From positions 1-64,000 of the forward strand of contig WGCA01000054.1 of the NCBI GenBank assembly GCA_015494065.1: a stretch of DNA of 64,000 bases, in the 5' to 3' direction. Under the pieces are notes generated by a model. That model did no database searches, was not told the origin of the DNA, and saw only the letters and a program-made list of their open reading frames with translations. Source of the DNA: Thermodesulfobacteriaceae bacterium. GTDB lineage: Bacteria > Desulfobacterota > Thermodesulfobacteria > Thermodesulfobacteriales > Thermodesulfatatoraceae. Shown piece after piece: positions 1 to 57,176 of this stretch (the stretch's first letter is position 1; the number at the start of each line of letters is the position of its first letter). The position numbers were made by a program, and so were the translations under genes.

Positions 1-1728
1 ATTCATAACCACTAAACCATCCGTCATGTCAATAACGTATTCAATAATTAGTTCTTCTTTGCCTTTGTAATTTAATTTTTCTTTAAAAAAGAAAACTGGT
101 ATATCTATAATTATTTTAAGGTATGTTTTTTCTTTTATTTCTTGCAATGTATCCAAATATAATTTCAATAGGTCGTCCTTATCTTTTTTAAAATCTTCTA
201 AACTCCAAGGTTCAATATCTAGATGTATTTCTGTTGTATACGGAAAAAATTTTTCTTCTATTAGTTTTATAATATTGATTAATTTTTGCCGATTTTCGGG
301 AAAGATCCACGTTGGTTCACCTAATAATATTTCTGTCTTTATTCCTTTTTTACTTAGTTGTAGAACAATATTTTTTAGCCAATATTCATCTTTCATGATT
401 TCTTCTATTTGTTCATTGTTTAAAGAGAAATAAATTCTTTTAATACCCCAATTGTTTAAAACTTTGATTAGTGGATAACTCTTTTGAGTGTCCCAAAACC
501 ATACAGTTATTTCTCTAGGAGGTATCCCTATAATCATTTTTTCTTTGCCTGGTATTTCTTTTGTTTGTAAGACTGCTCCTATTGATGAAAGTAAGGTAAA
601 AATTTGAGTTTGTGTCTTGTAATATTCATCTAAAAACAGCAATCCTGATATGTATGTATTTGCAGCATCTATTTTGTTCCTTCTGTTTTTATTAATAATT
701 TTTCTTTCAAAGTTTTGTTCAACAATTTGTTTTTTTATTTGAATATTCCATAATTGGTCTAAAAATTTATGTATTTCTTCTTTTATTAAATAGTTTTTTA
801 GTTCTTCTTCCTTTTTAATTTTTTCCCATAAATAATATAATTCTTCATTCTTTGACTTTTCTATTTGATAAAAGTTTAAAGGAAGTGTAAATGAAAATCC
901 TGTCCACACACTACCTGAGCTATCATTCCACGTTTTATCAAAACCCAAAGAAAATTTCATTCTAGGATAATATCTTTTTTTTGATAGCTTGTTAAAATCT
1001 TCTAATAATTTTATTATGTTAGAGTGTCTAGAGTAATTTATATTGTAGATTGGTACATTAATACATATAGGCTCTTCTTTTACTTCTATATCTTGTATTC
1101 CTAATATTATTGATAATATCTTTTTAATATTCTTAGTTTGCTCGGATAATATTTCTTGTTCTAGCATTATCTTGTAGATCTGATTGGCATTGATTGTTAT
1201 GTCTTCTGGGTAACCATAACCATTTTTTAGTTTAGCTTTTTTAAGCTCTATTAACTCTTCAATCTTTTCCTTGAGCTTATTAAGGAGCCTAATTCTATTT
1301 TTGAGTAATAAATAGTCTATATATAGATATTTAGTTTGCCATAATAGACGTATCTCTTTTTCGCTTTTTCGAGTATTAGCTTTGATATAATCTATTTTGG
1401 TTAAAAATTTCCTGTATAAATTGTCGGTATTATTAATCGATTTTTCTATTTTAAAGGACAATCCAGCGGTGTAACCAATTATATCTTCAGCATAAGAATT
1501 ATTTAAATAATAGAGGCCACTTAATGACAACTGCCATCCGTTATTTAGTGACAAAATTTGCAGACGTTTTTCTAGTTCTTTCAAATGTAACTTATCTGAT
1601 GCGAGAAGCGGAGATTTTCTTATTAAAACTGGAAGATCATAGTATGATATCTCGGTTGATGGAATACTAATCCCTTTTAAAGTTAAAAAAATAGCTATTA
1701 TTAATACGGTAGTCTTCTTGATACCCAT
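1..1728 (-). CDS. TolC-like outer membrane efflux/secretion protein fused to a C-terminal TIM-barrel (glycoside-hydrolase-like) domain; partial, runs off the left edge
   Basis: Open minus-strand frame from ATG at 1728 (MGIKKTTVLIIAIFLTLKGISIPSTE..., signal peptide) to base 1 with no stop, so absent from the ORF track. N-terminal coiled OMF-like region (..LKNGYGYPEDITINANQIYKIMLEQE.., ..YYPRMKFSLGFDKTWNDSSGSVWTGFSFTLPLNF..), then IPPREITVWFWDTQ...IKRIYFSLNN...TEILLGEPTWIF...EIHLDIEPWSLEDF. Confidence 0.75.
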   Translation of the reverse strand, partial: MGIKKTTVLIIAIFLTLKGISIPSTEISYYDLPVLIRKSPLLASDKLHLKELEKRLQILSLNNGWQLSLSGLYYLNNSYAEDIIGYTAGLSFKIEKSINNTDNLYRKFLTKIDYIKANTRKSEKEIRLLWQTKYLYIDYLLLKNRIRLLNKLKEKIEELIELKKAKLKNGYGYPEDITINANQIYKIMLEQEILSEQTKNIKKILSIILGIQDIEVKEEPICINVPIYNINYSRHSNIIKLLEDFNKLSKKRYYPRMKFSLGFDKTWNDSSGSVWTGFSFTLPLNFYQIEKSKNEELYYLWEKIKKEEELKNYLIKEEIHKFLDQLWNIQIKKQIVEQNFERKIINKNRRNKIDAANTYISGLLFLDEYYKTQTQIFTLLSSIGAVLQTKEIPGKEKMIIGIPPREITVWFWDTQKSYPLIKVLNNWGIKRIYFSLNNEQIEEIMKDEYWLKNIVLQLSKKGIKTEILLGEPTWIFPENRQKLINIIKLIEEKFFPYTTEIHLDIEPWSLEDFKKDKDDLLKLYLDTLQEIKEKTYLKIIIDIPVFFFKEKLNYKGKEELIIEYVIDMTDGLVVMN

Positions 1729-3011
1729 TTTGGCACGTATGTTGAATATCTGTGTAAGTCTAATAGCCAGTCATCTATATACGCTTTAAGGGCATGTAAT
1801 CTTAAAAACCAATTATATAATGGATAAAGTATGGTATAAAGTAAAAATTTATAATCCTTACTCTTTTCTAGAGAAAGGTTTATCAAGTAACTAACATATA
1901 AGAGAAATATCCAGAAAGTATAAACGGATAGTATAAATAAGTTTATTACTATAAATCCAATAGATCCATATTTTAATAGCAAATAAATGAGGTAAAATAA
2001 CATCGCAACTGGCATCAAAAATTGTAATATAAAGTTTAGATCAAGAAAGGTTATGAAATCTTGCCATTTTAAACAATTTGGATTCCAGAATTTTTTATAT
2101 TTTTTGAAAAAAAGCCAGACCAGGTCACCATCCCATCTTTGACGTTGTTTTAGTAAAGATGATAACGAAGAAGGAACCGATGTGCGGGCGACAGATTCCG
2201 GTACAAATTTTAAGCGTGCTTCCCTGTATATTGATCTCAGGAGTTTCAGCCTGTTTGTCAAATTCAAGTCTTCAGCTGTACCAGAATCCCAACCGTAAAT
2301 TTGTTCTAGAAAGGAGCGTCTGAAACAGCCGTAAGCGCCAGAAATATTATTAGTTGTTCCTAAAAATGAGAGAAATAATCGAGCTATTGTAATGGAAATA
2401 ACATATTCAATGTATTGAAATTTTGTCCAAATACTATCACTATAATTTCTCACTTTTAAATTACCTGATACAGCAATTACTCTAGGATCAGAAAATGGCT
2501 TAATTAAATGCTTGAGAGCATCATAATCTAACGATGTATCAGCGTCTAATGCAACGACAAACTCAATTTCTTTAGATAGTAATTTTAAACCTAAATTAAG
2601 AGAAGAAGCTCTGCCACCACGGTTAAATTTGGTTATGATTCTTAATTTTCTTTTCGGTGGCAGGTATACTTTTTCTAAATATTTAGTTTCTCTTTGTGTA
2701 TCAAAAACTATAATTATTTCTAATAATGAAGGATATTCTTGATAAAGAATAGTTCTTAAGTTTCTTAAAATTTCCTTATCGCTTTCCTTAAATGCTGTTA
2801 TAATTATGCCTAACGGTGGATAAAAATTATTGATCTTTCCTTCTTGTTTTGTTTTGAAGAAGTGATAATAAAAAGAAGATAAAATCATAAAGAAAAATAA
2901 TGGGAATTCTATCCAAAATGCAGGTGTTAGTATAAGTACTTGTATTATTAAATCGCTTTCTAGAAAATAACTTAAATAATCGTGATATAATTCTAATAGA
3001 TTTAATATCAT
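1701..3011 (-). CDS. Processive-type family 2 glycosyltransferase (BcsA/HasA-like membrane synthase without PilZ)
   Basis: TM segments plus GT2 motifs VALDADTS (DxD), GTAEDLN (TED-like), KQRQRWDGD (Q/RxxRW). Confidence 0.88.
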   Translation of the reverse strand: MILNLLELYHDYLSYFLESDLIIQVLILTPAFWIEFPLFFFMILSSFYYHFFKTKQEGKINNFYPPLGIIITAFKESDKEILRNLRTILYQEYPSLLEIIIVFDTQRETKYLEKVYLPPKRKLRIITKFNRGGRASSLNLGLKLLSKEIEFVVALDADTSLDYDALKHLIKPFSDPRVIAVSGNLKVRNYSDSIWTKFQYIEYVISITIARLFLSFLGTTNNISGAYGCFRRSFLEQIYGWDSGTAEDLNLTNRLKLLRSIYREARLKFVPESVARTSVPSSLSSLLKQRQRWDGDLVWLFFKKYKKFWNPNCLKWQDFITFLDLNFILQFLMPVAMLFYLIYLLLKYGSIGFIVINLFILSVYTFWIFLLYVSYLINLSLEKSKDYKFLLYTILYPLYNWFLRLHALKAYIDDWLLDLHRYSTYVPKWVSRRLPY

Positions 3012-3020
3012 GTCTCACAA

Positions 3021-4385
3021 TTAATCATAAATTATTTCTTGAATGTTTTTTTCTTCGAGTTCTCCAGGACAACTATAAATTTTGATCTCTATTTTAGGTA
3101 AGGGTAAATCTGTTTTTATATACTTTAACTTTGCTTGTAGCCGGTGTTTTACGGTTTCTGCGCCTTCTCTGGGTGTTTCTGGTAAAAGAAAAAGATATTT
3201 GCCCGTTTCATAACGAGTTCCAACATCTACTGATCTCAAATTTTCTTTTATATAGCTGATTACTTCTTCAAAATAATTTTTTAATGTAATGATGCCATAT
3301 CTTTCTGCTATAGCTTGTTCTTGTTGTTCGTCCCAAAAAATATACAAAAGACAAAAAGGACGCTTATACCGTTTAAATTTATTCCGTTCCCATTCTAAGA
3401 TAAAATGAAATAAATTCCATTTTATTAAATTTAAACGATCAAAAACATCTTCTATTACATATAAAGGTAATCTGCCATCTTCGGCTACCTGGTGAGCTAA
3501 TGCTGTTGTAACATATAATCTAATTTCTTGAAAGATAATAGATTGAAGTGAAAATCTGTTTTGGCAATTTAAGCAGAATACTTCTACTTTAGGTTCTTCT
3601 GATAAATGCCCACAGTTTAAGCATTTAAAAGCTTTACTAGGTATTTCATAGTCTTCACCTAAATGGCGTAAAAATTTATTGCATTTAGGACAGCGTAAAG
3701 AGTCTTTATAAAGAAAATCATCTTTCGATCCTATATAACCACAATCGAAATGATAATATAATTCTGTTTCTATGAGTTCTAAAGATGAACAGTTAGGGCA
3801 TGTATCTCTAAAAATAATCTGATAATGTCTATCTTGAGGGCATAGTGGTACTATATTTACTAGTTTTTGTGGACGTAATATTCCAAAAGATACTAATTGT
3901 TCAATAATATCTATTTCTTCACCTGGTTTAAGGTTGCAAAATATCCGAAGGATGGGAAAGTGATATGCGATAGGAGATGTTATAAGTGGATAAGGGGTGA
4001 TTTTTTCTTTTTGTCTGCTCCAGAGAAATCGCAAAAGTAAGATAATCCTTTTTTCTTGTTCTGATAGTTCAGGAGAGAGCGGTGGTAAATTTTTTACAAA
4101 TGTAGCCAGGTTTTTTATTTGTTCTGGATTAGTTTCTAACCAAAAACCATCTATTAAATCTTTAATTATGTCAGAAGTAAATTCGGGTTTTTTGTAAACA
4201 TATATCAGACTTAAGGCTGTTTCTTCATTTGAACGTAGAGAAAATAGCAATTCGTTCAATTTTTCTTGTGATAGATCTTCGCTTATTACATAACAATCTG
4301 CAATTAGATCTTTTTGGTAAGGTATGACTTCAAATTCTTCAGGAATATTTTTGACAGTAAGATCCCCTATAACCGCAAGTTTCAT
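3021..4385 (-). CDS. TackOD1-like zinc-ribbon protein with C-terminal degenerate GGDEF domain
   Basis: Several CxxC pairs (CPNC, CPKC, CLNC, CLNC). C-terminus aligns by eye with GGDEF: LEWERNKFKRYKRPFCLLYIFWD...LRSVDVGTRYETGKYLFLLPETPREGAE; the GGDEF signature is replaced by YETGK and RSVD sits at the RxxD I-site position. Confidence 0.7.
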   Translation of the reverse strand: MKLAVIGDLTVKNIPEEFEVIPYQKDLIADCYVISEDLSQEKLNELLFSLRSNEETALSLIYVYKKPEFTSDIIKDLIDGFWLETNPEQIKNLATFVKNLPPLSPELSEQEKRIILLLRFLWSRQKEKITPYPLITSPIAYHFPILRIFCNLKPGEEIDIIEQLVSFGILRPQKLVNIVPLCPQDRHYQIIFRDTCPNCSSLELIETELYYHFDCGYIGSKDDFLYKDSLRCPKCNKFLRHLGEDYEIPSKAFKCLNCGHLSEEPKVEVFCLNCQNRFSLQSIIFQEIRLYVTTALAHQVAEDGRLPLYVIEDVFDRLNLIKWNLFHFILEWERNKFKRYKRPFCLLYIFWDEQQEQAIAERYGIITLKNYFEEVISYIKENLRSVDVGTRYETGKYLFLLPETPREGAETVKHRLQAKLKYIKTDLPLPKIEIKIYSCPGELEEKNIQEIIYD

Positions 4386-6019: not shown

Positions 6020-6490
6020 TTATTTTTTGTCCAGGCAAAATTCGATAAAGAGTTTTGAGCCATTCAGAGAAAAGGGGAGTACTAACCTCTGGGATTTACA
6101 TAGGATATCCAGAGTATGGTTTTCCCCGGTCACGATCACCGGGGTGGAACTCTGAAGGCTGATACCATTTTGTTCAAAACGCCGCCGGAAGGCGCCGCAG
6201 ATCATGTTGGCCATCTCTCCTGCCGCGTCGCGGGCCTCATCGTTTATATTTTCCGGTCTCTGCCCGAAAAGGGCCTCTACGATGCCAAGGATGCAATCTT
6301 TATTGAAGGACACCACGAAACTTCCGGTAAAACCTTTGCCCGTAAGCCCCAAGACCGCAGAGACTTCTCCCAGGGCCTCTAATTCCTGACGGATAAAGCT
6401 CTTTTCTGGCTCCGGGGCCGCACCGGTAAAGGTCATAAGCACCTCTTTTACCGAATCCACCAGGGCGTCCAGAATCAAAGATTTGCTCAT
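6020..6490 (-). CDS. CheX-like chemotaxis phosphatase family protein
   Basis: MSKSLILDALVDSVKEVL...; EARDAAGEMANMICGAFRRRFE resembles the CheX/CheC E-x2-N signature. Confidence 0.75.
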   Translation of the reverse strand: MSKSLILDALVDSVKEVLMTFTGAAPEPEKSFIRQELEALGEVSAVLGLTGKGFTGSFVVSFNKDCILGIVEALFGQRPENINDEARDAAGEMANMICGAFRRRFEQNGISLQSSTPVIVTGENHTLDILCKSQRLVLPFSLNGSKLFIEFCLDKK

Positions 6491-6611
6491 CCCTGCCCCC
6501 TTTAAAAATTCTTTATCCTTCCTCATCGAACAGGGCCTAAAAAACTTTAAAGATTTACAACCCCCGCTAAATGTCTAACTTCAAAGAAAAAGGGCTCAGG
6601 AGGGATGACCC

Positions 6612-7628
6612 ATGAAGGAGGCGTTACTTTACGAAAAACTGGACGACCAGCTGGTGCGGTGCCATCTCTGTAACCACCGCTGCAAGATCCCTCCGGACAA
6701 ATTTGGAATTTGCCACGTACGTTATAACCGTGACGGGGTCCTCTACACCCTGGTTTACGGAAAGGTGATTGCCAAACACGTAGATCCCATCGAAAAAAAG
6801 CCCCTTTTTCACTTTTTGCCCGGCTCCAGGAGTTTTTCCATAGGGACAGTGGGTTGCAATTTCCAGTGTGATTTTTGCCAGAATTTTGAGATCTCTCAGT
6901 ATCCTCGTATAGAAGGCCGGGTGATCGGGGAAGAGACCAGCCCGGAAGAGGTGGTGGAGGCGGCCCTAGCCACCGGGTGTCAAACCATTTCTTATACGTA
7001 TAACGAACCCACCGTATTTTTTGAATTCGCCTATGATTGCGCCCGCCTGGCTACCCCCAAGGGGCTGCGTAACATCTTTGTCTCAAACGGATATATGACC
7101 AAGGAGGCCCTGGATACCATTTACCCTCATCTCCACGGCGCCAACATTGACCTTAAGGCCTTTCGCGAAGAGTTCTACCACAAACATTGTAAGGCGAGAC
7201 TGGCCCCGGTACTTGAAACCTTAAAATACTTAAAGAAACAAGGGGTTTGGCTTGAAGTGACGACTCTTATTATTCCCGGCGAAAACGACGACCCCGGTGA
7301 ACTGCGCGATATCGCTACCTTTATAAAGGAGGAGTTGGGCCCTGAAACCCCCTGGCACGTGACCCGGTTTTATCCCCGCTACCGCTTGCTTACCAGACCA
7401 GCCACTCCGGTGGAGACCCTGCGTCAGGCCTACCGGATTGGCAAAGAAGTGGGGTTAAAATACGTCTATACAGGCAATGTGCCCGGAGAAGAAGGGGAGA
7501 ACACTTACTGTCCAGGCTGTAACGCCCTCCTCATTGAACGTTACGGTTTCATGGTGAATAGTTACCGCTTAACCCCAGAAGGTAAATGCCCGGAATGCGG
7601 GCTTGCCATCGAGGGTGTGTGGTCATGA
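6612..7628 (+). CDS. amrS: AmmeMemoRadiSam system radical SAM enzyme (PflA-like)
   Basis: 338 aa; CxxCxxxC-type motif TVGCNFQCDFCQNFEIS, family N-terminus LVRCHLCNHRCKIPPDKFGICHVR. Confidence 0.9.
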   Translation: MKEALLYEKLDDQLVRCHLCNHRCKIPPDKFGICHVRYNRDGVLYTLVYGKVIAKHVDPIEKKPLFHFLPGSRSFSIGTVGCNFQCDFCQNFEISQYPRIEGRVIGEETSPEEVVEAALATGCQTISYTYNEPTVFFEFAYDCARLATPKGLRNIFVSNGYMTKEALDTIYPHLHGANIDLKAFREEFYHKHCKARLAPVLETLKYLKKQGVWLEVTTLIIPGENDDPGELRDIATFIKEELGPETPWHVTRFYPRYRLLTRPATPVETLRQAYRIGKEVGLKYVYTGNVPGEEGENTYCPGCNALLIERYGFMVNSYRLTPEGKCPECGLAIEGVWS

Positions 7629-8623
7629 AGGAAGGGGTAATCCTGCTTGAGCATGGAAGTGGCGGTCAGGCTTCGGCCCGGTTGCTCCGGGAGGTAATCC
7701 TTCCCCATCTGGGGGAGGTGCCCCTCCTTGATAGTGCTGTTTTGAAAGATTTTTCCTCTTCCCTGGCTTTTACCACCGACAGTTTCGTGGTGGATCCGAT
7801 CTTCTTCCCCGGCGGAGACATCGGTTCCCTTGCCGTCCACGGTACCGTGAACGACCTGGCCATGGTAGGGGCCACCCCTCTTTTCCTCTCCGTGGCTTTC
7901 ATCCTGGAAGAGGGCTTCCCCTTAAAGCTTTTTTCCCGCGTAGTGGCCTCTTTGGGAGAAGCAGCCCGGAAGGCCGGGGTCAAAGTGGTGTGTGGAGATA
8001 CCAAGGTTGTGCCTAAGGGCAAGGGAGACAAAATTTTTATCAATACTAGCGGCCTTGGAATTTTAAAAAAAGACTTTGTTCTTTCGCCTTCGCGCATTAA
8101 GGAGGGAGATAAGGTAATCGTTTCCGGTCCTATCGCGGAGCACGGGCTGTGTGTGCTGGCGGCCCGGGAAGATTTGGGCCTTGAAGGTCTTAAGAGCGAT
8201 TCTCAGCCCTTGCACCGCTTGACGGAGGCCTTTCTTTCCCGTTTTGGCCCGGAGATCAAGGTCTTACGGGATCCTACCCGGGGTGGGGTGGCGGCGGTGC
8301 TTTACGAATTTGCCGAGGCTACGGGTTTGAGTTTTTTCCTCGAAGAAGAAAGGATCCCTTTAAGGCCTGAGGTGAAGGCCGGTTGCGAGCTCCTAGGGCT
8401 TGACCCCCTTTACCTGGCCTGTGAGGGCCGTCTAGTGGCGGTGGTGGCCCCTGAAATCGCCGAGGAGGCCGCCTGCTTTTTGAGGAGTTTTCCTGAGGGC
8501 CAGGGGGCCTGCGTGGTGGGAGAGGTAGCCAGGGAGCGTTTCCCCCTGATCCTTAAGACTTGCTACGGGGGTCTTAGGCCCGTGCCCCCTCTTGCCGGAG
8601 AACCCCTTCCCCGTATTTGTTAG
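7625..8623 (+). CDS. hypE: Hydrogenase expression/formation protein HypE
   Basis: MKEGVILLEHGSGGQASARLL..., C-terminal PRIC; ATGA overlap with the upstream gene. Confidence 0.95.
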   Translation: MKEGVILLEHGSGGQASARLLREVILPHLGEVPLLDSAVLKDFSSSLAFTTDSFVVDPIFFPGGDIGSLAVHGTVNDLAMVGATPLFLSVAFILEEGFPLKLFSRVVASLGEAARKAGVKVVCGDTKVVPKGKGDKIFINTSGLGILKKDFVLSPSRIKEGDKVIVSGPIAEHGLCVLAAREDLGLEGLKSDSQPLHRLTEAFLSRFGPEIKVLRDPTRGGVAAVLYEFAEATGLSFFLEEERIPLRPEVKAGCELLGLDPLYLACEGRLVAVVAPEIAEEAACFLRSFPEGQGACVVGEVARERFPLILKTCYGGLRPVPPLAGEPLPRIC

Positions 8624-8703
8624 TCCTCTTTCCGAAAACCCTTTTGTTTGCACGGGAATTCGGGTAGAAATAGCCTTTGAAGTTTTAAAAGGAGAGAGAC
8701 AGG

Positions 8704-9918
8704 ATGAAAGGGCTATCTCCGGAAGAACAGCTGGAATACTTAAGACGAGGAACGGTAGAGATCATCGAAGAAGAGGAATTGCTTGCCAAACTTAAAAGGG
8801 CGCAGGAAACCGGAAGGCCCCTCAGGGTTAAAGCGGGTTTTGACCCTACCGCCCCTGATCTCCACCTGGGCCATACCGTGCTTCTGCGCAAGATGCGCCA
8901 CTTTCAGGACCTGGGGCACGAGGTCTATTTCTTGATCGGTGATTTTACCGCCATGATCGGGGACCCTTCTGGGCGCTCTGAAACCAGACCACCCCTGACC
9001 AAAGAGCAGGTACTGGAAAACGCCAAAACTTACCGGGAACAGGTATTCAAGATCCTGGACCCTGAGAAGACCAAAGTGGTCTTTAACAGCGAATGGATGG
9101 CCCGGTTTACCGCGGAAGACTTTATCAGGCTCTGCGCCAAATATACGGTGGCCAGGATGCTTGAGCGGGAAGATTTTAAGAAACGTTTTGAAAGCGGCCG
9201 GCCCATCGCAATTCACGAATTGATTTATCCCCTGATTCAGGCCTATGATTCTGTAGCCTTAAAAGCCGACGTTGAGCTCGGGGGGACGGACCAGCGTTTT
9301 AACCTCCTGGTGGGCCGGGATATTCAGCGGGAATACGGCCAGGAACCCCAGGTCATAATCACAGTGCCCATCCTTGAGGGTTTGGACGGAGTCCAGAAAA
9401 TGAGCAAATCCCTGGGCAATTACGTGGGTATTACCGAGCCTCCCCGGGAAATGTTTGGCAAACTCATGTCCATTAGCGATACCCTCATGTGGCGCTACTA
9501 CGAACTGCTAACGGACGTCCCTTTAGCAGAAATTACCCGCTGGAAAGAGGAGGTGGCCCAGGGGCGCATAAATCCTAAAGAGCTAAAGATGAAACTGGCC
9601 AAGGAAATTGTGGCCCGTTTCCATTCCCCGGAGGCCGCTGAAAAGGCCGCCGCAGAGTTTGAAAAGGTCTTTGCCAGAGGGGGAATCCCTGATGACCTTC
9701 CGGAAGTGGCGGTAACCGCCGGGGAAATATGGTTGCCGCGCTTTCTAAAAGACCAGGGTTTGGTAAAAAGTACCTCCGAGGGAAAGAGGCTTTTGGCCCA
9801 GGGCGGAGTCCAGATAGACGGCCAAAAGATAAGGCAGGAAAATTTCCTCCTCGAAGCGGGCAGGGACTACGTCTTCCGGGTAGGGAAGAGGCGTTTTCTC
9901 CGGGTCAAGGTTTCTTAA
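8704..9918 (+). CDS. tyrS: Tyrosyl-tRNA synthetase
   Basis: [31 protein letters not shown]-terminal S4 domain. Confidence 0.97.
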
Positions 9919-10687
9919 GGGGTGGTTGGTACCCCTGAAGGTCCAGGTAAACCTTTAAAAAACCGAGTTGCTTGAGGTGGGCCATGATTTCGGCCTTGCT
10001 CTCCCAAAGGAGCTCGATTTCCCGGGGGTCCACCTCAATCAGGGCCCTGTTGTTTAGAAACCGAACTCTTACCTTGGAAAACCCGAGAGATAAAAGATAG
10101 GCTTCGGCCTTTCTTACCCGGGTAATCTTTTCGGCAGTTATCTTCTCTCCGGGAGGAAAGCGGGTGGCGAGACAAGGGGAGGGGGCTTCCCGGTAACGTC
10201 TCAGACCCAATTTGCGTCCCAAGGCCCGGAGTTCTTCCTTGGTCAAAGAGGCCTCTTTTAGGGGACTCAAGATTTTGAGTTCTTTTAAGGCCTTAAGCCC
10301 TGGGCGGTCTTCTTTGAGGTCGTCTTGCTGGGTACCGTCTGCCAAAGGGAAGGTGCACCGGGAAAGTAAGTTTTCGAACATGGTCTTTTTGCAAAAATAG
10401 CACCGGTCCGGAGGGTTTTTTCGAAACGCCCAAAGGGCGAGGTGGTCAAAGGCGACGAAGTGGTGTCTTACTCCGAGACTTAAAGTGACCAGACGGGCCT
10501 CTATCAGATCTTCAGGTACCATGATGGGGGAGGAGATGGTCAAGGCCTCGACCCGGTGGGGGCCTAAGATGCGGCACGCCAGCACAAGTAATATGCTGCT
10601 ATCCAGGCCCCCGGATAAAGCCACGCTCAGGCCGGGCAGTTCACGGAGCCGGTCCTCAAGCCTTTTAAGTTTGGTGGTCAGCGTCAC
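9905..10687 (-). CDS. larE: ATP-dependent sacrificial sulfur transferase LarE family
   Basis: PP-loop [47 protein letters not shown] start. Confidence 0.9.
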
Positions 10688-35214: not shown

Positions 35215-38200
35215 TTACCATCTTTTTACTAATGAGCCAAAAATAAGAAGCATCATAAGAAGACCTATTCCAGCAACCAGCGGATACTTAATTCCAAAGA
35301 TAAGAGGGGTGAGAGCCAGGCGCGTAGCAAACCTTAAGCCTTCGTGCCGGGCGATAATCTCTGCCACCGGCGGTGAATATTTGTAGTACATGGCTACGAA
35401 CCAGCGCCCCACCGGATTGGTGAGAAGATACCGGTCGCGGAAGTCTCGCAGCACCTTCACGTGTGGATCTAGATACGAACCGTAGGCCGCGGTGGCAATG
35501 AAACATCCGCCACCACCGCCTCCACCGGTTGCGACCGCTCCCGCCGTTCCAGCCGCCGGCTCAAGGAATACGATCGGGTCTTCGATCACCCCCGACGCCG
35601 GGTTTACATCAAATGGTCCATTGTCTTGGACTACCAGTTCGAGAAGAGTGCGCCCTTCGGTGAGGTTATCGCTCAAGTTGTGGAAGGTGCCATTCGCATA
35701 TTTATAAGGCACTACGCCGTCCGGAAGGGGCGGATCAAACCGCCACCTGAGAACTACCGACCCGGTACCGTTGACAGACAACCGTACCCGGAGCATACGC
35801 GGATAATCATCTGAAATTCTCATTCCAGGAAGGTCGGTGGCCAGTTCGTCTTCTATCTCCGGGTCTATTTCTTCTGCGCCGGCATCTTCCACGGTACCGC
35901 CTTCGGCTTCCAGCCCGCACTCCTCTTCACCGTCTCCGTCAAGATCGCCTTCATGTGCAGCCACTAATCTGATCTGGCAAGTCAGATCAGCATTAAGGGT
36001 AAAGGTACAGGTGGTATGGTCGTCGTCACAAATACTATCACAGCCTCCTTCCCAGCCTGCAAAATGAGAATCTTCTGGATCTACCGTAAGGGTAATTTCT
36101 GATCCAGACTCGAAGGTTCCAGAACAGCTCATCTGGTCAACATTGCAGTTGATATTTCCCGAAACCTCGGCAAAGCCGGTCCCGTGCTTTTCAAGCGTAA
36201 GGGTATAGGTCGCTAACGCCCCGGTCCCCAAAAGGGCCACCGAAACCGTGCCCTCGTCAGGGTCGTTTGAGACAATTTCAAGGGTGGCGTTTTTGGCCCC
36301 AGCACTCTGCGGCCTGAAGGCCACGGTCACCGTGCAATTTTCCCCGGGAGTAAGTGTCGTGCCGTTACAGGAATCCGCCGAGACGGAAAATTCCGAGGCG
36401 TTCGTTCCGGTTATGGAAACTTCGGTGATATTAAGACTCGCTCCGCCTACATTGCTCACCACGAAGTCTTTTTCCGCGGCATTTCCCACCTGCACCGTGC
36501 CGAAGTCGTAGGAGGCGGGCGACACGGAAATGTCGGGAGAAGGGGCAGTGACTCTTACCTGAACGGTTTCAGTATCTGTGCCTCCCTTTCCGTCATTAAC
36601 GGTGAGTTTTGCCGTATAGTTCCCCGGATTGGTGTAAGTATGATTTTGAGAGGTATTACTCGCACAATCGTTTATGGTGTAATCGTCTGTCCCGTCGTTA
36701 TCTACATCGAGATAACAGGTCAACGAATCTCCGTCGAGATCCGAAACATTCCAGCTAAAGGTCACATCAAGTGGTGCGGTGCCAGTCGTCGGGTTAACCG
36801 TAAAGGAATTAATGTCGGGTAGATTGTTATTAGCGAACTTTGCAACAAGCGCGTCTCCCTTTTCCCCAGCTACATAAACAACATTACTTGTATCCAAGGT
36901 TAAAGCGTATCCCTCAGCCCCAAAAAGACTATCAAAACCTAAAAGACTTGATAAGTTTGAGGATAAAGTTGCGACAAAGAGATAACTATTGTTCCATTTT
37001 CCTGTAACATAAGCATTTCCGTAAGAATCCAAAGTGATCGAACGGGCCACATCAATGCCATTACTTCCTAAATAAGTAGAAGATATAAGTGTAGACAAAT
37101 CATTACTAAATTTTGAAACAAACGCTTCAATATTTCCACTTAAACTATCTTGATAGGCATTATCTGTCACAGGAAAATCCGTACATTTTGTTTCTCCGGC
37201 AACATATACATTGTCGCTCGAATCTAAAGCTATTGAGTATATAAAAGTGGAAGCAATAGAGGAGTAGCCAGTTGTACCACCTAAATAAGTAGAAGACTCG
37301 AGATCAGAAAGACCATTGCTCAATTTAGCGACAAAACCACATCCGTAATTTGCTTCACAACTATTTTGATATCCACCTATTATAGGAAAGTCGCTGGATT
37401 TTGTATAGCCGGCCACAAAGACTTTGCCATTAGAATCCAAAGTTATTGAATAGATGCAATCTTCATCATTACCACCTAAGTAAGTAGAAACATGAAGGGT
37501 CGATAAGTCTCCACTTAATTTAGAAATAAACGCATTGATGCTGTAAAAGCTACCTGGATATGAAGATTGAAAACCGGATGTTGTATTAGGAAAATTGGTT
37601 GAATATGTTTCTCCAGCAACATAAACGTTTCCATTCGAATCCAAAGTTAAGGAATTTATTTTATCAAGACTACTTCCTCCTAAATAAGTTGAAGTAAGGA
37701 GAGTTGATAAATTATTAGTCAATTTAGCGATAAAGGCATCTGTTGTGCTCGCAAGAGTTTGCTGATATGCGTTATCGGTTGTTGGAAAATCATTCGAAGA
37801 GGTTTCTCCAGCAACATAAACATTACCACTGGAATCTAGAGCTATTGAATAAGCTCGATCTGAATTACTGCCACCTAAATAAGTGCAAGCAATAATAGTT
37901 GATAGGTCATTATTTAACTTAGCTATAAAAACATCATCATCTCCTCCATGAGAAGTTTGATATGCACCATTGGTTACCGGAAAGTCGGTCGATGTTGTAT
38001 AGCCAGCCACAAAGACATTACCATTTGTATCTAGAGCTATCGCATAAGCATATTCATCTCCAATATCAGTTCCCAGGGTAGTATAGGTCAATAAAGGATC
38101 TATGATCAAAATCCTATTCTGATCATAATTTTCGATTTCAAAACCGTAAGTATTTTCAGCTAAAATCTTATACTTTACCTTTACGTTTATTCGCTTCCCA

Positions 38201-38829
38201 TTCACTTCCTGATAAGCTACAGGTTTAGTAAATTTTACTTCCCCAGAATTCGTTTTTACAACAAGTTCACCTGTTTTCGGGTTTATTTTTAAACTTTTAA
38301 TCCCTTCTAGCTTTAAAGCTATCTTCTTGGGATCGCCTCCGGGGTATATTTTAAATATCTTTTCTATATTATTTCCATGAGCTTTAATTCTAAACTCTAT
38401 TCCCTGGTAAATTTTACCAAAAGAAATTGCCTCAAAACTTTCTATATTTTTTCTCCATTTTTTCTTATCTTTTCCAATAAAATAGTTAAACTTAACATCG
38501 GTTGATTTATGTCCTTCGATTTTTTTAATGCTTGCTCCTTCAAGAATTTCTTTAAACGTTATTCCTTTTTTATTGTTATATTTCGAAAAAGCATAAACGA
38601 GTTCACCTTCTTTAGTTATAAAAACTGTACCCCCGAAAATATCAGCAAAAAACTGTACCCTGGGATCAATTTGTCCTTCATTTTTGACAAAGGGGATATT
38701 TATATTTTTGATGACTTTAAATAGTTCTTGTTCTGTCGAAATTCTTGATCTTACATTTGCAAAAGCCCTTACGCTACTAAAAACAAAAACTAAAAACCAA
38801 ACCAAAATAAAACAAACTAGCTTCCTCAT
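35215..38829 (-). CDS. Secreted SBBP-repeat / PKD / choice-of-anchor protein with CFI-box-like C-terminal anchoring region
   Basis: Repeats [116 protein letters not shown]...C-terminal TM. Confidence 0.88.
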
Positions 38830-42387: not shown

Positions 42388-44250
42388 TTAGGTGGTCCCA
42401 CTTTTCCGGCGGTCTTGGCGTTTTTTAAATTCAATGATGGTTTTCAGATCTTCAGAAAGCATCCGGTGTTCCTCGGTTATGCGTTTCAGTTCTTCAGGGG
42501 TGGAGACAATGTGGGGAGTAATAAAGACAAAGAGGGTAGTACGTTCTTCTCGCTTCTCAGAACGACGAAAAAGATGACCTATCAGGGGAGCACCAGAAAA
42601 ACCTGGTACCTGGGAAAGGCTTTCCTGCTTTTTACGGGAAACCAAACCTCCCAGGATCACTGTCTGACCATTATCAACGATAACTTCGGAAGAGATCTCC
42701 CGTTTTGAAGTCACCGGGGCAACGAAATCAATGGTTCCCTGTTGGGCCCGGTAAACCTGGGTAACCTCTTGGATGGTTTGATGAATCTCAAGGCGTACGG
42801 TGTCCCCCACAATGTGGGGGGTAATAGTAAGGTTGAGGCCTACGTCTTTGTATTCAAAAGAAACAGTAGGGAGGGTGTTGGTCTGATAGGTGATACCGGT
42901 AGTATAAGGTACAGACTGGCCCACGTTGATAATGGCCTTACGGTTGTCAAGGGTGAGGATACGAGGGTTAGAGAGGATGCGAAAGGATGAATCTTCTTCC
43001 GAAAGGGTAAAGAGGAAAAGTAATTCCGGGAAGAAAAATTCCGTCCCCCCTATAGAGACGGTCTGTCCACTTTTACTTAGAGCTCCTACAATAAACTTTC
43101 CTTGTGTTACCGCTGAGTAGAGGTCGCTTTGGGCCACCCCACCAAAAGCTGCCCCACCGTGGGTGCCAAGAATCTGCCACTTAACCCCAAGGTCCCGGAG
43201 TCTCGAAAGAGAAATTTCTACCACCGTGGTGGCCAGCAAGACCTGTTTTCGCCGGACATCAAGCCGAGCTACCAGGTCCTTTACTTTTTCGAATTCCGCA
43301 GGGGTGGCGTAAACTATTAAGGCGTTGGTAGATTTGTCCGCCGCGATTTGAAGGCCACCTTTGGAAACAAAAGTTTTTTTGCCTTTCTGGTCGTTGAGCT
43401 TTATCTGTTCCAGGTTGAGCGAACGCAGGATCTTGGCCAGTTCTTCGGCCGAGGAATATTTAAGATGGAGTACATAAAAGCGCCTTTCTTGATTTTTTAC
43501 CGGAACATCAAGCTCTCTGATGATCTTTTCTACTTCCTTGAAAACTTCCTTGTTCCCGTAAACGATCAAGGTGTTGGTGCGCTCGTCTTTGACGGTTCGG
43601 AAAGTGAGCCCCTTTTCCGCAACTAGGGTTTGGATCATGGGAGAAAGATTTCGGTAAAGATCTTCTACAGAAGCATATTTCAGCCGAAAAATACGTACTT
43701 CTGGAAGCCCTGAGTCCTTTTCTAGGGTTTGCAGGAGTTCCTTTACCCGCGCCAGGTTTACGGCGTAATCTCTAAGGATGAGAACAGGGGTTCCAGGGAG
43801 TTGCAAGACCAGCCCCCGAGGAGAGAGTAGGGGCTTGATCATTGGCAAGGTTTTAGCAGGATTCAAACGAGTAAGGGTATAAACTAGGATGCAAGGCTCA
43901 CGGTCCACTGCTGGGTTGGCGGATAAACGAGGGGTTTCTTCCCGTAAATGACGGGAAGAAACAATTTTTACGTACCCGTCTTCTTCATAGACCGTGGCAC
44001 CGATGAGCCCTAGGGCCTCGGTAATCATGCGCCAGGCCGTTTCAGGGGAAACCGGTTTTCTGGAAATGACGGTAATCTTTCCCTTTAAATTTTCGTCGTA
44101 GACCACATTTTTGCCGAGTTCTCTGGCCAGAAATTGAACTAGCGTCTTCACTTCTACCTGATCAAAGTTGAGATAAACTCCAACCTGGGCCCCGAAGGCA
44201 GAAATATGCCAGAAAAGTAACAAGATCCATACGGGTAAGGCCTTTTTCAT
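42388..44250 (-). CDS. gspD: T2SS secretin
   Basis: Secretin N domains and secretin fold (LSNPRILTLDNRKAIINVGQSVPY, EISSEVIVDNGQTVILGGLVSRKK). Confidence 0.96.
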   Translation of the reverse strand: MKKALPVWILLLFWHISAFGAQVGVYLNFDQVEVKTLVQFLARELGKNVVYDENLKGKITVISRKPVSPETAWRMITEALGLIGATVYEEDGYVKIVSSRHLREETPRLSANPAVDREPCILVYTLTRLNPAKTLPMIKPLLSPRGLVLQLPGTPVLILRDYAVNLARVKELLQTLEKDSGLPEVRIFRLKYASVEDLYRNLSPMIQTLVAEKGLTFRTVKDERTNTLIVYGNKEVFKEVEKIIRELDVPVKNQERRFYVLHLKYSSAEELAKILRSLNLEQIKLNDQKGKKTFVSKGGLQIAADKSTNALIVYATPAEFEKVKDLVARLDVRRKQVLLATTVVEISLSRLRDLGVKWQILGTHGGAAFGGVAQSDLYSAVTQGKFIVGALSKSGQTVSIGGTEFFFPELLFLFTLSEEDSSFRILSNPRILTLDNRKAIINVGQSVPYTTGITYQTNTLPTVSFEYKDVGLNLTITPHIVGDTVRLEIHQTIQEVTQVYRAQQGTIDFVAPVTSKREISSEVIVDNGQTVILGGLVSRKKQESLSQVPGFSGAPLIGHLFRRSEKREERTTLFVFITPHIVSTPEELKRITEEHRMLSEDLKTIIEFKKRQDRRKSGTT

Positions 44251-45062
44251 TGCACCTCCGCCCTTAGGGTCAGAACTTTGTCGCCCCTCCGGATTTTTAC
44301 CGAAAGAGAAGGGGCCGTTTTGAGGGTTTCGATAATGCGAAAAGCGTCTTCGTTCTTTCGCACCGGAATATCGTTTATGGCCAGGACGACGTCCCCGGCC
44401 CGGAGTCCGGCCCGGAAGAAGAGCGACCTCGGTGCCACATATTCCACCCGAACACCCTCCATCTTTCCCCGCCGAAAGTTAGGACGCAGACGAATTTCAG
44501 CAAATAGAGAACCAATATCTGCCGTAAGTTTTTCAAGCTCTTCACGCGTAATCAGTAGTGCTTGGGAAGATGCCTGCGAAACATCATTATTAGCATCATT
44601 ATTAGTGGAAAAAGTCTGGGGTTCGGATTCAAAAAGCCTCTGGATCACTTTGCGGTCTTTAAAGATGAGTTCTACAGAATTAGGAAAAATTTTTACTATC
44701 CGCCAACCCTTTATCTTTTCTCCTTCTTTGGCCCAGTAGCTTTCCTCTCCGCATTTCAAGAGGACTAGTTTTGCGCCTTTTCCCCAATAAATGGCAAGCA
44801 GCCTGGGGGCTTCGGTACTCAGGTCTTGTGGGGAAGACGCAAGGTCTTTTTCTGAAGGAAGATAAAAACGGGCGAGCAGTTTTTCGAAATCAAAATGGGG
44901 CCCGGGGTTTTTAAAAGACGAAAAAGCACCGCCCTTAGGAATAGGGAGAGTTTTGGTCAATTTGAGGTGGAAATAACCGAAGGTGAAGAGAATACTTAGT
45001 GAAGAAACAAAAAGCAAGGTTATTAAAACCCGGGCCAGGAAAAGCATCAGGAAAACCTCCAA
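44247..45062 (-). CDS. gspC: T2SS inner-membrane protein GspC (PDZ)
   Basis: N-terminal TM, PDZ GLRAGDVVLAINDIPVRKNEDAFRIIETLK. Confidence 0.88.
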   Translation of the reverse strand: MEVFLMLFLARVLITLLFVSSLSILFTFGYFHLKLTKTLPIPKGGAFSSFKNPGPHFDFEKLLARFYLPSEKDLASSPQDLSTEAPRLLAIYWGKGAKLVLLKCGEESYWAKEGEKIKGWRIVKIFPNSVELIFKDRKVIQRLFESEPQTFSTNNDANNDVSQASSQALLITREELEKLTADIGSLFAEIRLRPNFRRGKMEGVRVEYVAPRSLFFRAGLRAGDVVLAINDIPVRKNEDAFRIIETLKTAPSLSVKIRRGDKVLTLRAEVQ

Positions 45063-45904
45063 TAGACCACCTTCAAAGCGGGACCGATTCTTTTAACGAT
45101 GGCCCTCAGTTCCCCTTCCACCTCCCCCACCGTTACTTCAATCGTCACCCGAAAATTTTCGCTTTTTACCGTAGCCCAGGGGCGTAAGTCATGCAAAATT
45201 TCGAAATTGTAACCCTCTATCAAAACGACATCATCTATCTTTTTGAGAGGACGTATTCGGCGGTATTCTAGCAATCTTTCCGCAAGAGTTCTATCAATTC
45301 GGGGACTTAAGACCATGATGACTTCGGGAGGTGCGGTATTGAGGTTAACCCGGCCGTTACTCCAGACCGTGGTAAGCGTAGAAAGTCCCGGATAAAAGAC
45401 GAAACCCCTGGTCTTACCGTAAAAGTCTTCCCTAGACATTCCAAGAAAAAGGAGTTCTTCCAGGCTGTCAAAAGGAGCTTTTTTCGGCGGATAAGCTCGA
45501 TCCCAAAAACCCGTCCCTCCTACCCACACCCGTAAGAGCTCTGGAGAAAGGGAGGAGATAGAAAGTTCTTCAAAGAGTCTTTTTATTATCCTAAATCCCG
45601 CCTCAGTACGCACCAGGTTAAGATTAAGATAACGTTCTTCGTCTTCCACCCGGATCGTCATCTCCCCTTCGGGGAGGGGAAATTCTAAAGGGGTGGCCCA
45701 CCCATCATTGAGCGTGTCGTAAGAAAAATCGTCACTTTTAAGATAAAAAATTAAAAATTTCAAAGCTGAAGCGGCCTCATGATAGGCCTGTTGTTTGAGA
45801 TATAACTTATGGATCATCACTTCGGCTTGACGTACGGAAAGATATTCTTCGGTAATCAGGCCAGATAAGACCAGAAAAAAGCCAAGTACCATTAGAATAA
45901 TCAT
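45047..45904 (-). CDS. gspK: T2SS minor pseudopilin GspK
   Basis: N-terminal TM, GRVNLNTAPPEVIMVLSPRIDRTLAERLLEYRR. Confidence 0.9.
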   Translation of the reverse strand: MIILMVLGFFLVLSGLITEEYLSVRQAEVMIHKLYLKQQAYHEAASALKFLIFYLKSDDFSYDTLNDGWATPLEFPLPEGEMTIRVEDEERYLNLNLVRTEAGFRIIKRLFEELSISSLSPELLRVWVGGTGFWDRAYPPKKAPFDSLEELLFLGMSREDFYGKTRGFVFYPGLSTLTTVWSNGRVNLNTAPPEVIMVLSPRIDRTLAERLLEYRRIRPLKKIDDVVLIEGYNFEILHDLRPWATVKSENFRVTIEVTVGEVEGELRAIVKRIGPALKVVYWRFS

Positions 45905-46458
45905 TTTAGGACCTGCCCCGCCCTTACCGGAATGATCATCCTATTGTTTTCCCATTGTATTTCAACCTTTTCGGGCCTTCCGGAAAATCCCTCAGCTTGA
46001 GACCACCAACGGTCATTACGAAAGACTTTAATCCTGAAGTCCTTTAAAGTTCCCAACGAGAATTCTTTGTTTTCCTCACAGGAAAGAATCTCTCCGTAAG
46101 GATAGGGCTTTTCGCAATAAAATAATTCGTTTCCTTGATACCGATACCTTACCTGAACTACACCCCGGTAAATCTCTCCAAAAGAAGTAATGAATCCCAT
46201 ATAAAGGCCGTCTTTCCTCTTTTCCATACGGAAGGAGCGCAAAAATCCCTCGATCTGATGTCGCAAACGGTAGGAGAGAAAGGCCTGATGATTGAGATAT
46301 TCGGCCTCCTGTTGCCGGGTAAGGGCCCCTTGACCAGCGGTGTGAAAAAGCGTAAGCACCGTTCCGAAGACCAGCGAGAGAAGAAAAAACACCAACAGCG
46401 TCTCAAGTAGGGTGAAGCCCTTATTATTTCCGGTAAAGACGGAAGTAAATTCTTTCAT
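45901..46458 (-). CDS. gspJ: T2SS minor pseudopilin GspJ
   Basis: NKGFTLLETLLVFFLLSLVFGTVL prepilin signal; operon position. Confidence 0.82.
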   Translation of the reverse strand: MKEFTSVFTGNNKGFTLLETLLVFFLLSLVFGTVLTLFHTAGQGALTRQQEAEYLNHQAFLSYRLRHQIEGFLRSFRMEKRKDGLYMGFITSFGEIYRGVVQVRYRYQGNELFYCEKPYPYGEILSCEENKEFSLGTLKDFRIKVFRNDRWWSQAEGFSGRPEKVEIQWENNRMIIPVRAGQVLK

Positions 46459-46714
46459 TGCCTTCGGTAAGCTGATAAATCTCTTCTTGAACAGTAAAGT
46501 TATGGACTTTGAAGCGGCGGCTTTTTACTTCTACTCCTTCTATGGGTTCTCCGGCCAGAAAAAGCTCAAGCTTTAAGACACCTGCAAAGAGATTTTCGGA
46601 ACGGATCAGAGTACGCAAAGCCAGGGTATGGAGGTAAAGGAGAGCCGAATAGGCGATTGCCAGTATGATAAAAGCCACCAGAACTTCGATGAGCGTAAAC
46701 CCAGCATTTTTCAT
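46424..46714 (-). CDS. gspI: T2SS minor pseudopilin GspI
   Basis: MKNAGFTLIEVLVAFIILAIAYSAL. Confidence 0.83.
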   Translation of the reverse strand: MKNAGFTLIEVLVAFIILAIAYSALLYLHTLALRTLIRSENLFAGVLKLELFLAGEPIEGVEVKSRRFKVHNFTVQEEIYQLTEGNERIYFRLYRK

Positions 46715-47121
46715 TTTATCACCATCCTCACGCTAAAATTCCCGTTTCCAGACCGATCTTCGGCGTAAAAGGCTTTTACTTGGAGATTCTGTGTTCTGAG
46801 CCAGGAAAGAAGCCGTGCAAGCTCCTTCCAGGAAAGTTCCAGTTCCACCTCCACCACGTCATAGACCCCACGCACCGCCTCCGGTTTGAATCCCTGGGAT
46901 ACTAGTTTTTCCTTAAGAACTTCGGCAGAAAAGGAGGACCGTCGAGGAGGAGCTTCAGTTTCAAGTAGATAGGCCAGGTAGCGAAGCCGGCTCCATTCTG
47001 TGAGGAGGAGAGTTTCGGCCTTTTTGACTTCCGATATCAGTAATCCTAGGACCAGAAGGCCCAAGATCACCAAAAATCCTAAAAAAGCCAGGGGATGGTG
47101 TTTAAAATTAGGGACTTTCAC
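46711..47121 (-). CDS. gspM: T2SS GspM-like protein
   Basis: N-terminal TM, ferredoxin-like C-terminus, between gspL and gspI. Confidence 0.65.
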   Translation of the reverse strand: MKVPNFKHHPLAFLGFLVILGLLVLGLLISEVKKAETLLLTEWSRLRYLAYLLETEAPPRRSSFSAEVLKEKLVSQGFKPEAVRGVYDVVEVELELSWKELARLLSWLRTQNLQVKAFYAEDRSGNGNFSVRMVIK

Positions 47122-48208
47122 CGCCGAATTCTAAGGTTGCGATTTCAATACCACCGGGAATCTTTTTGATTGCAGCAAGTTTTCCCGGAAGTTCCCTGGT
47201 TTTCTCTTCGGGTATTTCTACTTTGATTTTTAGCTTCCCTTCTTCAAAAGTAAGAGACAGAATTTTCGTTCCCTGTGGAAGACCTTCTAGGGCTTCTTTA
47301 AAGAGATGCTGAAATTGTGGCTTTCTAGCTTCTTGTATCAAGGCTTTTAACTGTTTAAGAGGAGCAACTACCGGGGTTCCTGGGTAGTATTCGTGAAAAA
47401 GAGCCCTTTCCCGGGCCTTTAACTCCCGGTGTAGAACAGGGACCCAGAATTTCAAACTTCCCCAAATAAGAGAGGAAAAGACAAGCCCTGCCAGCATGAG
47501 GCCTGTGATTTTACGGGCTTTTTCAGGATCAATCTCAAGAAAATAGGACTGGAGAGCCGGAAGATCACGACCCAGAGTCCCAAAGAGGGCGGCTCCGAAG
47601 GCACTCACTTTTTCCGGGGACACCTCCGGGATCCTCTTTATCTCTTTCCCGGCAAACAATTTTTCCACCTCTGGAGAAAGGCTCCCTCCTCCGGAAAGGA
47701 CCAAAGGACTGGGGACTTCTCCGAAATCAAATTCTCGCTGACCATTAAGGAAACACCTGCAACTGGCAAGTCTTCCTCCCCTGACCCTCACTAGGGTAAC
47801 CTTGCGAAGGCCGAAATCTACTATGGCTCCGTCGGTAAATCCCGTACTGAGAAAGGCCCTGGTCAAAGCGACCGGTTCGGCCTCCCAAAAGTCTCCCTTT
47901 TCAAGCTCTCCTTCGGGCTCAGCTACCAAGACCCTGGCTCTACCTTCTTCCCACCATAATTTCCAGAGAATATTTCGATCCTTTAAAAGCGATAAAATCT
48001 CCTCCCGAAGATAACTTTCAGCCTCCTCTTGACGGGTTATTTCGGGAGGAAGATTTTTCAACAATACCCGGTGGGAAGGGATGAGATATATCTTCCGGCC
48101 ACGGGGAGAGGAGGAAAGGGGGCGATAATAAGAAAGAAGCGGAAATACCAAGAGGGTTACCATTTTAGTGCCGGAAGCTCCTTGATCTATCCCCGTCTGA
48201 AAGATCAA
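47108..48208 (-). CDS. gspL: T2SS GspL-like protein
   Basis: Actin-like N-terminal region, central TM, periplasmic PilN-like domain, operon position. Confidence 0.75.
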   Translation of the reverse strand: MIFQTGIDQGASGTKMVTLLVFPLLSYYRPLSSSPRGRKIYLIPSHRVLLKNLPPEITRQEEAESYLREEILSLLKDRNILWKLWWEEGRARVLVAEPEGELEKGDFWEAEPVALTRAFLSTGFTDGAIVDFGLRKVTLVRVRGGRLASCRCFLNGQREFDFGEVPSPLVLSGGGSLSPEVEKLFAGKEIKRIPEVSPEKVSAFGAALFGTLGRDLPALQSYFLEIDPEKARKITGLMLAGLVFSSLIWGSLKFWVPVLHRELKARERALFHEYYPGTPVVAPLKQLKALIQEARKPQFQHLFKEALEGLPQGTKILSLTFEEGKLKIKVEIPEEKTRELPGKLAAIKKIPGGIEIATLEFGGESP

Positions 48209-48212
48209 GTCT

Positions 48213-48656
48213 CTATGCTCCCTTGGCTAAATTCCAGACCGAAATATCGTCTTCTGTACCTTCTATACCGTCCGGCCCTACGGAAAAGAGTTCGTAGGGG
48301 TGGCCACTTTCACCTGGTGAAAGATAGATAAATTCGTTTCCCCAACCGTCTCGGGGAAGCTCGTCAAGATACTGGTGCCAGCGTTTGGGCACAGGCGGGA
48401 TCTCTGGCTTTTCCACCAGGGCACGAAGCCCCTGTTCAGTGGTAGGATAGAAGCCGTTGTCCATACGGAACTGCTCCAGAGCACCTTTAAGGGCTTTGAG
48501 CTGGATACGAGTACTTTCTAGCCGGGCCTGATCCACCCTGCCCACCACCCTAGGGATAACGACCCCGGCCAGCAACCCCAAGATAATAATCACCACCAGG
48601 AGTTCGATAAGGGTAAAACCTTGCCTGTTTTTCTTCGTCATTTTTTTCTTCGTCAT
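48213..48656 (-). CDS. gspG: T2SS major pseudopilin GspG
   Basis: RQGFTLIELLVVIIILGLLAGVVIPRVVGRVDQAR; MDNGFYPTTEQGLRALVEKP. Confidence 0.97.
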   Translation of the reverse strand: MTKKKMTKKNRQGFTLIELLVVIIILGLLAGVVIPRVVGRVDQARLESTRIQLKALKGALEQFRMDNGFYPTTEQGLRALVEKPEIPPVPKRWHQYLDELPRDGWGNEFIYLSPGESGHPYELFSVGPDGIEGTEDDISVWNLAKGA

Positions 48657-49476
48657 TTTCTTCCTCCTCGGGAAAAACTACGCGAATTCGTAAAGGTAAA
48701 CTTTCGTGTTTTGCCCCGTCGATGGCTCTTATATTATAAAAGACTGTTCCTTTTAAAATTTCTTGCTCCTGAAAGGAGTTTTGCTTGACCTTAAAAACTT
48801 TACCTTTCCTCTCAACCACATAGCCCACCACGTCCCTCGAAGGACTGGGATCCCACACCAAAACCAGCGCCTTCCCTTTCAAAAAATATCCACCCCCTGA
48901 AGGTGGTAGAGGGGGTTCTAAGTCCTTTATTTCAATCTCAAAAGGCCGGGAAAGGGGACCATAAAGGTCTGGACCAAAAATAACAGCCGCCGAAAAGAGA
49001 TAAGTCTTTCCCAGCAAGAGTTCGTGTAAAGAATGGGTCCCCGGTGAAACTTCGAGGGGGTGCAAAAGATCGGGGTTTTTTCCTTTTTCCCAGACAAAAA
49101 GGGCCACTTTAGGAAAAAGGCTAATGACTTTAAGATCAAGGGCATAGGAGTCTACGCGAAGGATTTTAAGATGGGGATAAACCCGGGGAACTGGTTTTAA
49201 GCATAATGACCTGGCCCCTCCCTTCCAAAAGATTTTTACACACTTATCCTCTGGCTCGACCAGCCATCCACCAGGCCTCTTTTCCACTTTCTTTGCCCCG
49301 TCGAACCGGAAGGTTTCCCCGGGGATTTGTACCACCAGCATTCGGGAGCCAAATTGTACAAAACGTATATCTTGGCCTTGGGGTGGGTTGGGAACATGTT
49401 CTGTAGGTCTCAAAGCGCAACCCCAAAGATAAAGGACCATGAGGAGGAAAAAGAATCTTCCAGACGCCTGTATCAT
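48550..49476 (-). CDS. Putative lipoprotein with Fn3-like domain inside the T2SS operon
   Basis: Lipobox LYLWGC; GKALVLVWDPSPSRDVVGYVVERKG; 3' end overlaps gspG by 107 bp. Confidence 0.7.
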   Translation of the reverse strand: MIQASGRFFFLLMVLYLWGCALRPTEHVPNPPQGQDIRFVQFGSRMLVVQIPGETFRFDGAKKVEKRPGGWLVEPEDKCVKIFWKGGARSLCLKPVPRVYPHLKILRVDSYALDLKVISLFPKVALFVWEKGKNPDLLHPLEVSPGTHSLHELLLGKTYLFSAAVIFGPDLYGPLSRPFEIEIKDLEPPLPPSGGGYFLKGKALVLVWDPSPSRDVVGYVVERKGKVFKVKQNSFQEQEILKGTVFYNIRAIDGAKHESLPLRIRVVFPEEEENDEEKNDEEKQARFYPYRTPGGDYYLGVAGRGRYP

Positions 49477-57130: not shown

Positions 57131-57176
57131 ATCAGAACCTCCTTTCAAAGCTGGAGTCTTGTTCACAAAATCCTTT

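Follow-up and report, generated by a model that had tools for sequence, protein, structure and literature searches.

A probable Mxd-type polysaccharide secretion operon with a TolC/GH18-like fusion in a Thermodesulfobacteriaceae bacterium

The operon at the start of the 64,000-nucleotide stretch of DNA analyzed here (the window) probably encodes a polysaccharide secretion system of the Mxd type, dependent on a synthase and gated by c-di-GMP. The original prediction was of a synthase-dependent exopolysaccharide system that combines a receptor with a degenerate GGDEF domain, a synthase of the GT2 family, and a fusion of TolC with a glycosidase. Our analysis supports this composition. Two parts of that prediction have to be given up. 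The system does have a named relative, Mxd of Shewanella oneidensis: the receptor corresponds by homology to MxdA, the synthase to MxdB, and the adaptor seen in a congener to MxdC. It also does not consist of three proteins, since in the congener this HlyD adaptor is encoded by a fourth gene. The four-gene Mxd-type form with a fused duct is apparently an undescribed variant: in the freely searchable (non-subscription) literature, we found no such operon described in which a TolC-like duct and a GH18-like barrel form one protein.

Results

The operon consists of tightly packed open reading frames on the minus strand that carry the domains originally named for them. Gene 1 (MxdA-like; positions 3021 to 4385, minus strand) encodes 454 amino acids and gene 2 (MxdB-like GT2; positions 1701 to 3011, minus strand) encodes 436 amino acids, and both open reading frames were confirmed. 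Gene 3 (TolC-like protein plus TIM barrel; positions 1 to 1728, minus strand) has 576 codons for amino acids and runs off the end of the contig. The gap between genes 1 and 2 is 9 nucleotides long, and gene 3 shares 28 nucleotides with gene 2. Position 1 of the window is base 1 of its contig (C54), and therefore the truncation of gene 3 is due to the assembly, which represents a 2.03-Mb genome that is 99.9% complete. The complete operon is present in a congener (G005), where it has four genes, with an HlyD-type periplasmic adaptor after gene 3. The full copy of gene 3 in G005 is at L020:11994-13994, and gene 4, which matches Pfam HlyD families, is at L020:11033-12016 and overlaps the end of gene 3. 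The G005 and window proteins are 50% (gene 1), 58% (gene 2), and 39% (gene 3) identical. The adaptor was not found elsewhere in the assembly of the window genome (G000), in which C54 ends before the gene 4 position.

The G005 operon is flanked by a purL-like gene on one side and by nuclease/helicase-like genes on the other (named from their translations). Because a close GT2 is found in only two of the eight genus genomes sampled (the window genome and G005), and because the flanks of the operon differ between these two, the data suggest that the operon has moved horizontally. A search for Rfam RNAs near the operon, c-di-GMP riboswitches included, gave no matches. A CheX-family protein is encoded close to it (positions 6020 to 6526, minus strand); contact between CheY and MxdA has been reported for Shewanella.

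Farther along the window, a type II secretion operon (positions 42388 to 51931, minus strand) encodes a secretin, a PDZ/GspC-like protein, T2SSK, a pseudopilin, GspF, and GspE, and is adjoined by a gene for a GH114 family protein (polygalactosaminidase family; positions 51940 to 52821, minus strand). Two large surface-type proteins with PKD, InlB-B-like, and SBBP/propeller repeats are encoded at positions 52871 to 56233 and 35215 to 38829 (both minus strand), and both coincide with dips in GC content to about 35 to 44%. The protein encoded at positions 56330 to 57181 (minus strand) has a PEP-CTERM sorting motif.

The mxd genes of S. oneidensis were located by means of primer sequences from a published study of the mxd promoter (PMC3691769). 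One primer has an exact match in 1 of 131 genomes of the candidate genus, and all five primer stretches tested match exactly just upstream of the mxd gene, on a contig of 4,969,811 bp. S. oneidensis MxdA consists of a TackOD1 domain (4.7e-71) and a degenerate GGDEF domain, MxdB is a GT2, and MxdC is an HlyD protein. Gene 1 of the window matches MxdA (BLASTP, 1e-31), gene 2 is 33% identical to MxdB over 440 columns (3e-75), and the G005 adaptor matches MxdC (1e-9). In a maximum-likelihood tree of GT2 proteins, the window protein, its G005 counterpart, MxdB, two Aliivibrio proteins, two Aeromonas proteins, and three further entries form one clade (support, 100/99). All of the GT2s belonging to the system group together (92/90), and Escherichia coli PgaC falls outside. 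The window thus has both an MxdA homologue with the TackOD1 and degenerate GGDEF domains and a GT2 within the MxdB clade, and the order of these first two genes is the same as in mxdABCD of S. oneidensis MR-1.

The Shewanella operon differs from that of the window in lacking the TolC/GH18-like fusion; it also includes mxdD (122 amino acids with no Pfam match). The fusion is likewise absent from the Aeromonas and Aliivibrio operons, and elsewhere in the Shewanella, Aeromonas, and Aliivibrio genomes only its TolC part is matched. Within the MxdB clade, the fusion is found in the window, in G005, and at loci L109 and L124, while at locus L074 the translation indicates a duct that lacks the barrel. 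Judged from the tree, the Shewanella system looks like a reduced form.

Gene 1 encodes an N-terminal alpha/beta domain (residues 1 to 100), a TackOD1 zinc domain with conserved CxxC pairs (positions 3513 to 4058, minus strand; Pfam, 3.4e-47), and a C-terminal degenerate GGDEF domain that scores slightly below the Pfam cutoff, in agreement with the earlier reading of a zinc protein with a degenerate GGDEF. Seven Cys positions of TackOD1 are conserved in all 85 homologues and three further positions in 82 to 83 of them. The AlphaFold model has a pLDDT of 93.7, and a fold search with it matches the GGDEF fold. At the site of the lost GG(D/E)EF signature, the protein reads ETGKY (positions 3195 to 3209, minus strand). 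The motif RSVD (R384 to D387; positions 3225 to 3236, minus strand) corresponds to the RxxD of the c-di-GMP inhibitory site (I-site). The Asp (81 of 83 homologues, 98%) and the Arg (66 of 83, 80%) of this site are the most conserved residues of the GGDEF-like domain. A third I-site Arg, at the same offset (+31) as in PleD, is present in 46 of 83.

Ordinary GGDEF domains also have RxxD in their consensus, and the retention of this motif alone does not prove a receptor role. Taking its conservation together with the lost signature, we consider gene 1 a probable c-di-GMP receptor. Binding may not extend to all homologues, because the RxxD Arg is missing in 17 of 83, almost all of them from Bacteroidota, and the third Arg is found in only 46. 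Canonical GGEEF cyclases that could supply the signal are encoded in the host genome.

The gene 2 product is an MxdB-like processive GT2, a membrane protein that matches Pfam GT2 families and has no PilZ domain. Most of the motifs originally named for it are present, the exception being TED, which is AED in this protein. The DxD motif is DAD (D156 and D158; positions 2538 to 2546, minus strand), AED is at positions 2268 to 2276 (minus strand) with D248 at the position of the catalytic base, and QRQRW, a Q(Q/R)xRW motif, is at positions 2133 to 2147 (minus strand). D156, D158, D248, Q289, R290, R292, and W293 are invariant in 55 of 55 homologues. The best-scoring models for this GT2 include PgaC and NodC, both of which are hexosamine polymer synthases, and our guess is that the polymer made is an N-acetylhexosamine polymer. 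A sugar-nucleotide enzyme is inserted at one locus only (L044:6381-7385), and this single case was left out of the polymer inference.

Gene 3 encodes a TolC-like outer-membrane factor (Pfam OEP, 5.6e-06, above the cutoff) joined to a GH18-like TIM barrel, in line with the glycosidase-like TIM barrel originally predicted. The window copy lacks the C-terminal part of the barrel, and the fold was modeled on the full copy from G005. In this model, the TolC-type part forms long hairpins and residues 410 to 665 form a TIM barrel; the mean pLDDT is 76 overall, and values are mostly above 90 in the barrel. Its matches in a PDB fold search are TolC/OprM, followed by GH18 chitinases. The only match in a PDB sequence search with the fusion is 10yv, a "putative GH97" of Cellulomonas, and Pfam GH18 is matched by 7 of 51 fusion homologues at an E value of ≤0.01 (best, 4.6e-06).

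The D-x-E of the barrel lies in the motif HLDIE (positions 211 to 225, minus strand), of which the H is conserved in 50, the D in 51, and the E in 50 of 51 fusion homologues; an M-x-Y farther along the barrel is conserved in 50 and 49 of 51. A TIM barrel with D-x-E and M-x-Y is what we call GH18-like. The full GH18 signature, D-x-x-D-x-D-x-E, is not present, since His replaces the middle Asp in 50 of 51 homologues, and for this reason we do not call the barrel GH18 and do not regard its catalysis as assured. Both termini of TolC are periplasmic, and therefore the fused barrel should be periplasmic as well.

A scan of genomes with the window gene 1 protein as a single query gave no matches. A profile built from six sequences, scanned against GTDB genomes, found relatives of gene 1 at 302 genome loci, and 80 of these were retained. 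Full flanks are available for 47 of the retained loci; the GT2 is present at 46 of them, the HlyD adaptor at 44, and the TolC/TIM-barrel fusion at 37, and all four genes are present at 37. Carriers of the complete four-gene form include Prolixibacter and Rheinheimera. This recurrence is far beyond chance, and co-occurrence elsewhere, the test by which the original prediction was to be judged, is strongly borne out. The fully flanked loci are spread over about ten phyla. Relatives of gene 1 come from Calditrichota, KSB1, Planctomycetota, Omnitrophota, Bacteroidota, Nitrospirota, WOR-3, Hydrogenedentota, Pseudomonadota, Actinomycetota, and others, and the genes occur in two orders, receptor-GT2-fusion-HlyD and fusion-HlyD-receptor-GT2.

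In the source phylum, TackOD1 scores above the cutoff in 8 of 248 genomes, and in 6 of these 8, including the window genome, it has GT2 and TolC/TIM neighbors. The other two loci (L042 and L045, in genomes G209 and G157) also encode proteins with TackOD1 and a degenerate GGDEF, but the GT2, the duct, and the adaptor are all missing from their neighborhoods. Two Actinomycetota loci (L092 and L112) have the receptor and GT2 only, a form that would fit the absence of an outer membrane to cross. At L092:10052-12473, this gene pair apparently lies among argS, lysA, hom, and rho (named from translations). A three-gene form (receptor, GT2, and HlyD) is carried on a Plesiomonas plasmid (L142, NZ_CP062197.1, positions 6818 to 10518).

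Discussion

The Mxd assignment has to be weighed against the possibility that the operon is a variant of a PNAG/chitin-like, cellulose (Bcs/Xcs), or Pel system, which we consider quite unlikely. By the features tested here, the operon does not match a Pel, Bcs, or PNAG variant. The window GT2 passes no NCBIfam cutoff; its top model is PgaC/IcaA, but the score of 131.8 bits is far below the 422.3 required, and E. coli PgaC lies outside the system clade. The window system resembles PgaABCD in having a glycosidase domain in the periplasm on the route of export, but its operon has no deacetylase, PgaD, or PgaA-type porin, and we rejected PNAG. Bcs cellulose was rejected because the synthase has no PilZ and its match to E. 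coli BcsA is weak and local. There is also a functional resemblance to XcsAB-TolC, proposed for cyanobacteria (PMC12430437) for cellulose secretion, which likewise combines a GT2, an HlyD-type adaptor, a TolC-like duct, and a glycosidase. However, the Xcs synthase bears PilZ, the Thermosynechococcus vulcanus genes are scattered, the model has no TackOD1 receptor, and the endoglucanase is a separate protein; XcsAB-TolC was rejected for want of a PilZ-bearing synthase, although the adaptor is present in the congener. Pel also uses a degenerate GGDEF with an I-site as its c-di-GMP receptor (PelD) and has a glycosidase in its pathway. The window synthase, however, is a GT2 rather than a PelF-type GT4, neither PilZ nor GT4 is among the genes seen, the operon has no counterparts of PelB, PelC, PelE, or PelG, and its receptor has TackOD1; Pel was rejected on the type of synthase. 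A different concern, not raised in the original prediction, is the GC content of the operon block, which is 26 to 31% compared with ~54% for the contig and begins at base 1, as might be seen if a contig end from another organism had been misjoined. We regard such a misjoin as improbable, given that the congener has the same operon, with 58% GT2 identity and a similarly low GC content (31 to 35%), in the middle of a 132-kb contig.

Two further alternatives concern single proteins of the Mxd-type system. RefSeq gives the product name "diguanylate cyclase" to relatives of gene 1 on Plesiomonas and Aeromonas plasmids, and the gene 1 model does match the GGDEF fold, but the canonical GG(D/E)EF signature is found in 0 of 83 homologues. 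In the Shewanella papers, MxdA is a c-di-GMP-binding effector with a degenerate domain (PMC7666153, PMC11395469, PMC3691769), a published c-di-GMP link that the window system would share. An active or residual cyclase is therefore very improbable for gene 1, and on sequence grounds the RefSeq label is probably wrong for its relatives. In an otherwise identical system, the barrel of gene 3 might have no catalytic activity and serve instead as a sleeve that binds the glycan and directs it into the duct. The His in place of the middle Asp would fit this, as would the presence of a chitinase-like lectin, 3bxw (SI-CLP), among the fold matches. The D-x-E Asp and Glu and the M-x-Y are nevertheless nearly invariant, beyond what binding alone would lead one to expect, and we view a dead sleeve as possible but doubtful.

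In the Mxd-type mechanism that we propose, the cytoplasmic MxdA-like protein, having lost the cyclase signature and kept the I-site, would bind c-di-GMP there, as published for MxdA, and in the bound form would license the inner-membrane MxdB-like GT2. This synthase would polymerize a nucleotide sugar and pass the chain across the inner membrane. Gene 4, past the contig end, would supply the HlyD-type adaptor that links the synthase with the TolC-like duct in the outer membrane, and the GH18-like barrel at the C terminus of the duct may trim, release, or clear chains there from the periplasmic side.

Shewanella mxd mutants are deficient in aggregation and in the structure of their biofilms, and an exopolysaccharide is suspected as the mxd product (PMC7666153, PMC11395469, PMC3691769). 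A literature search found no described operon that combines degenerate GGDEF, GT2, HlyD, and TolC, and the mxd papers covered by the search are nearly all on Shewanella. With somewhat less confidence than in the assignment itself, we favor the view that Mxd is a major, largely unrecognized class of c-di-GMP-gated secretion system found in many phyla, the full form of which has the fused TolC/GH18-like duct. The Shewanella, Vibrionaceae, and Aeromonas versions would then be reduced by loss of the fusion, with L074 as an intermediate, and would probably borrow a general TolC.

The literature searched describes neither the outer-membrane step of Mxd nor its product. These results give the system a composition and a likely path for export, and they show that Mxd relatives are widespread. 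They also point to a likely role for TackOD1 (PF18551), an obscure domain known from archaeal REC-TackOD1 proteins and some bacteria in a study that left its function open (PMC5847659) and tied here to a GT2 system. Many proteins named "diguanylate cyclase" are more likely to be c-di-GMP receptors, a point to bear in mind when the cyclases of a genome are counted. Finally, the TolC/glycosidase fusion offers an idea of how a polysaccharide exporter may stay clear.
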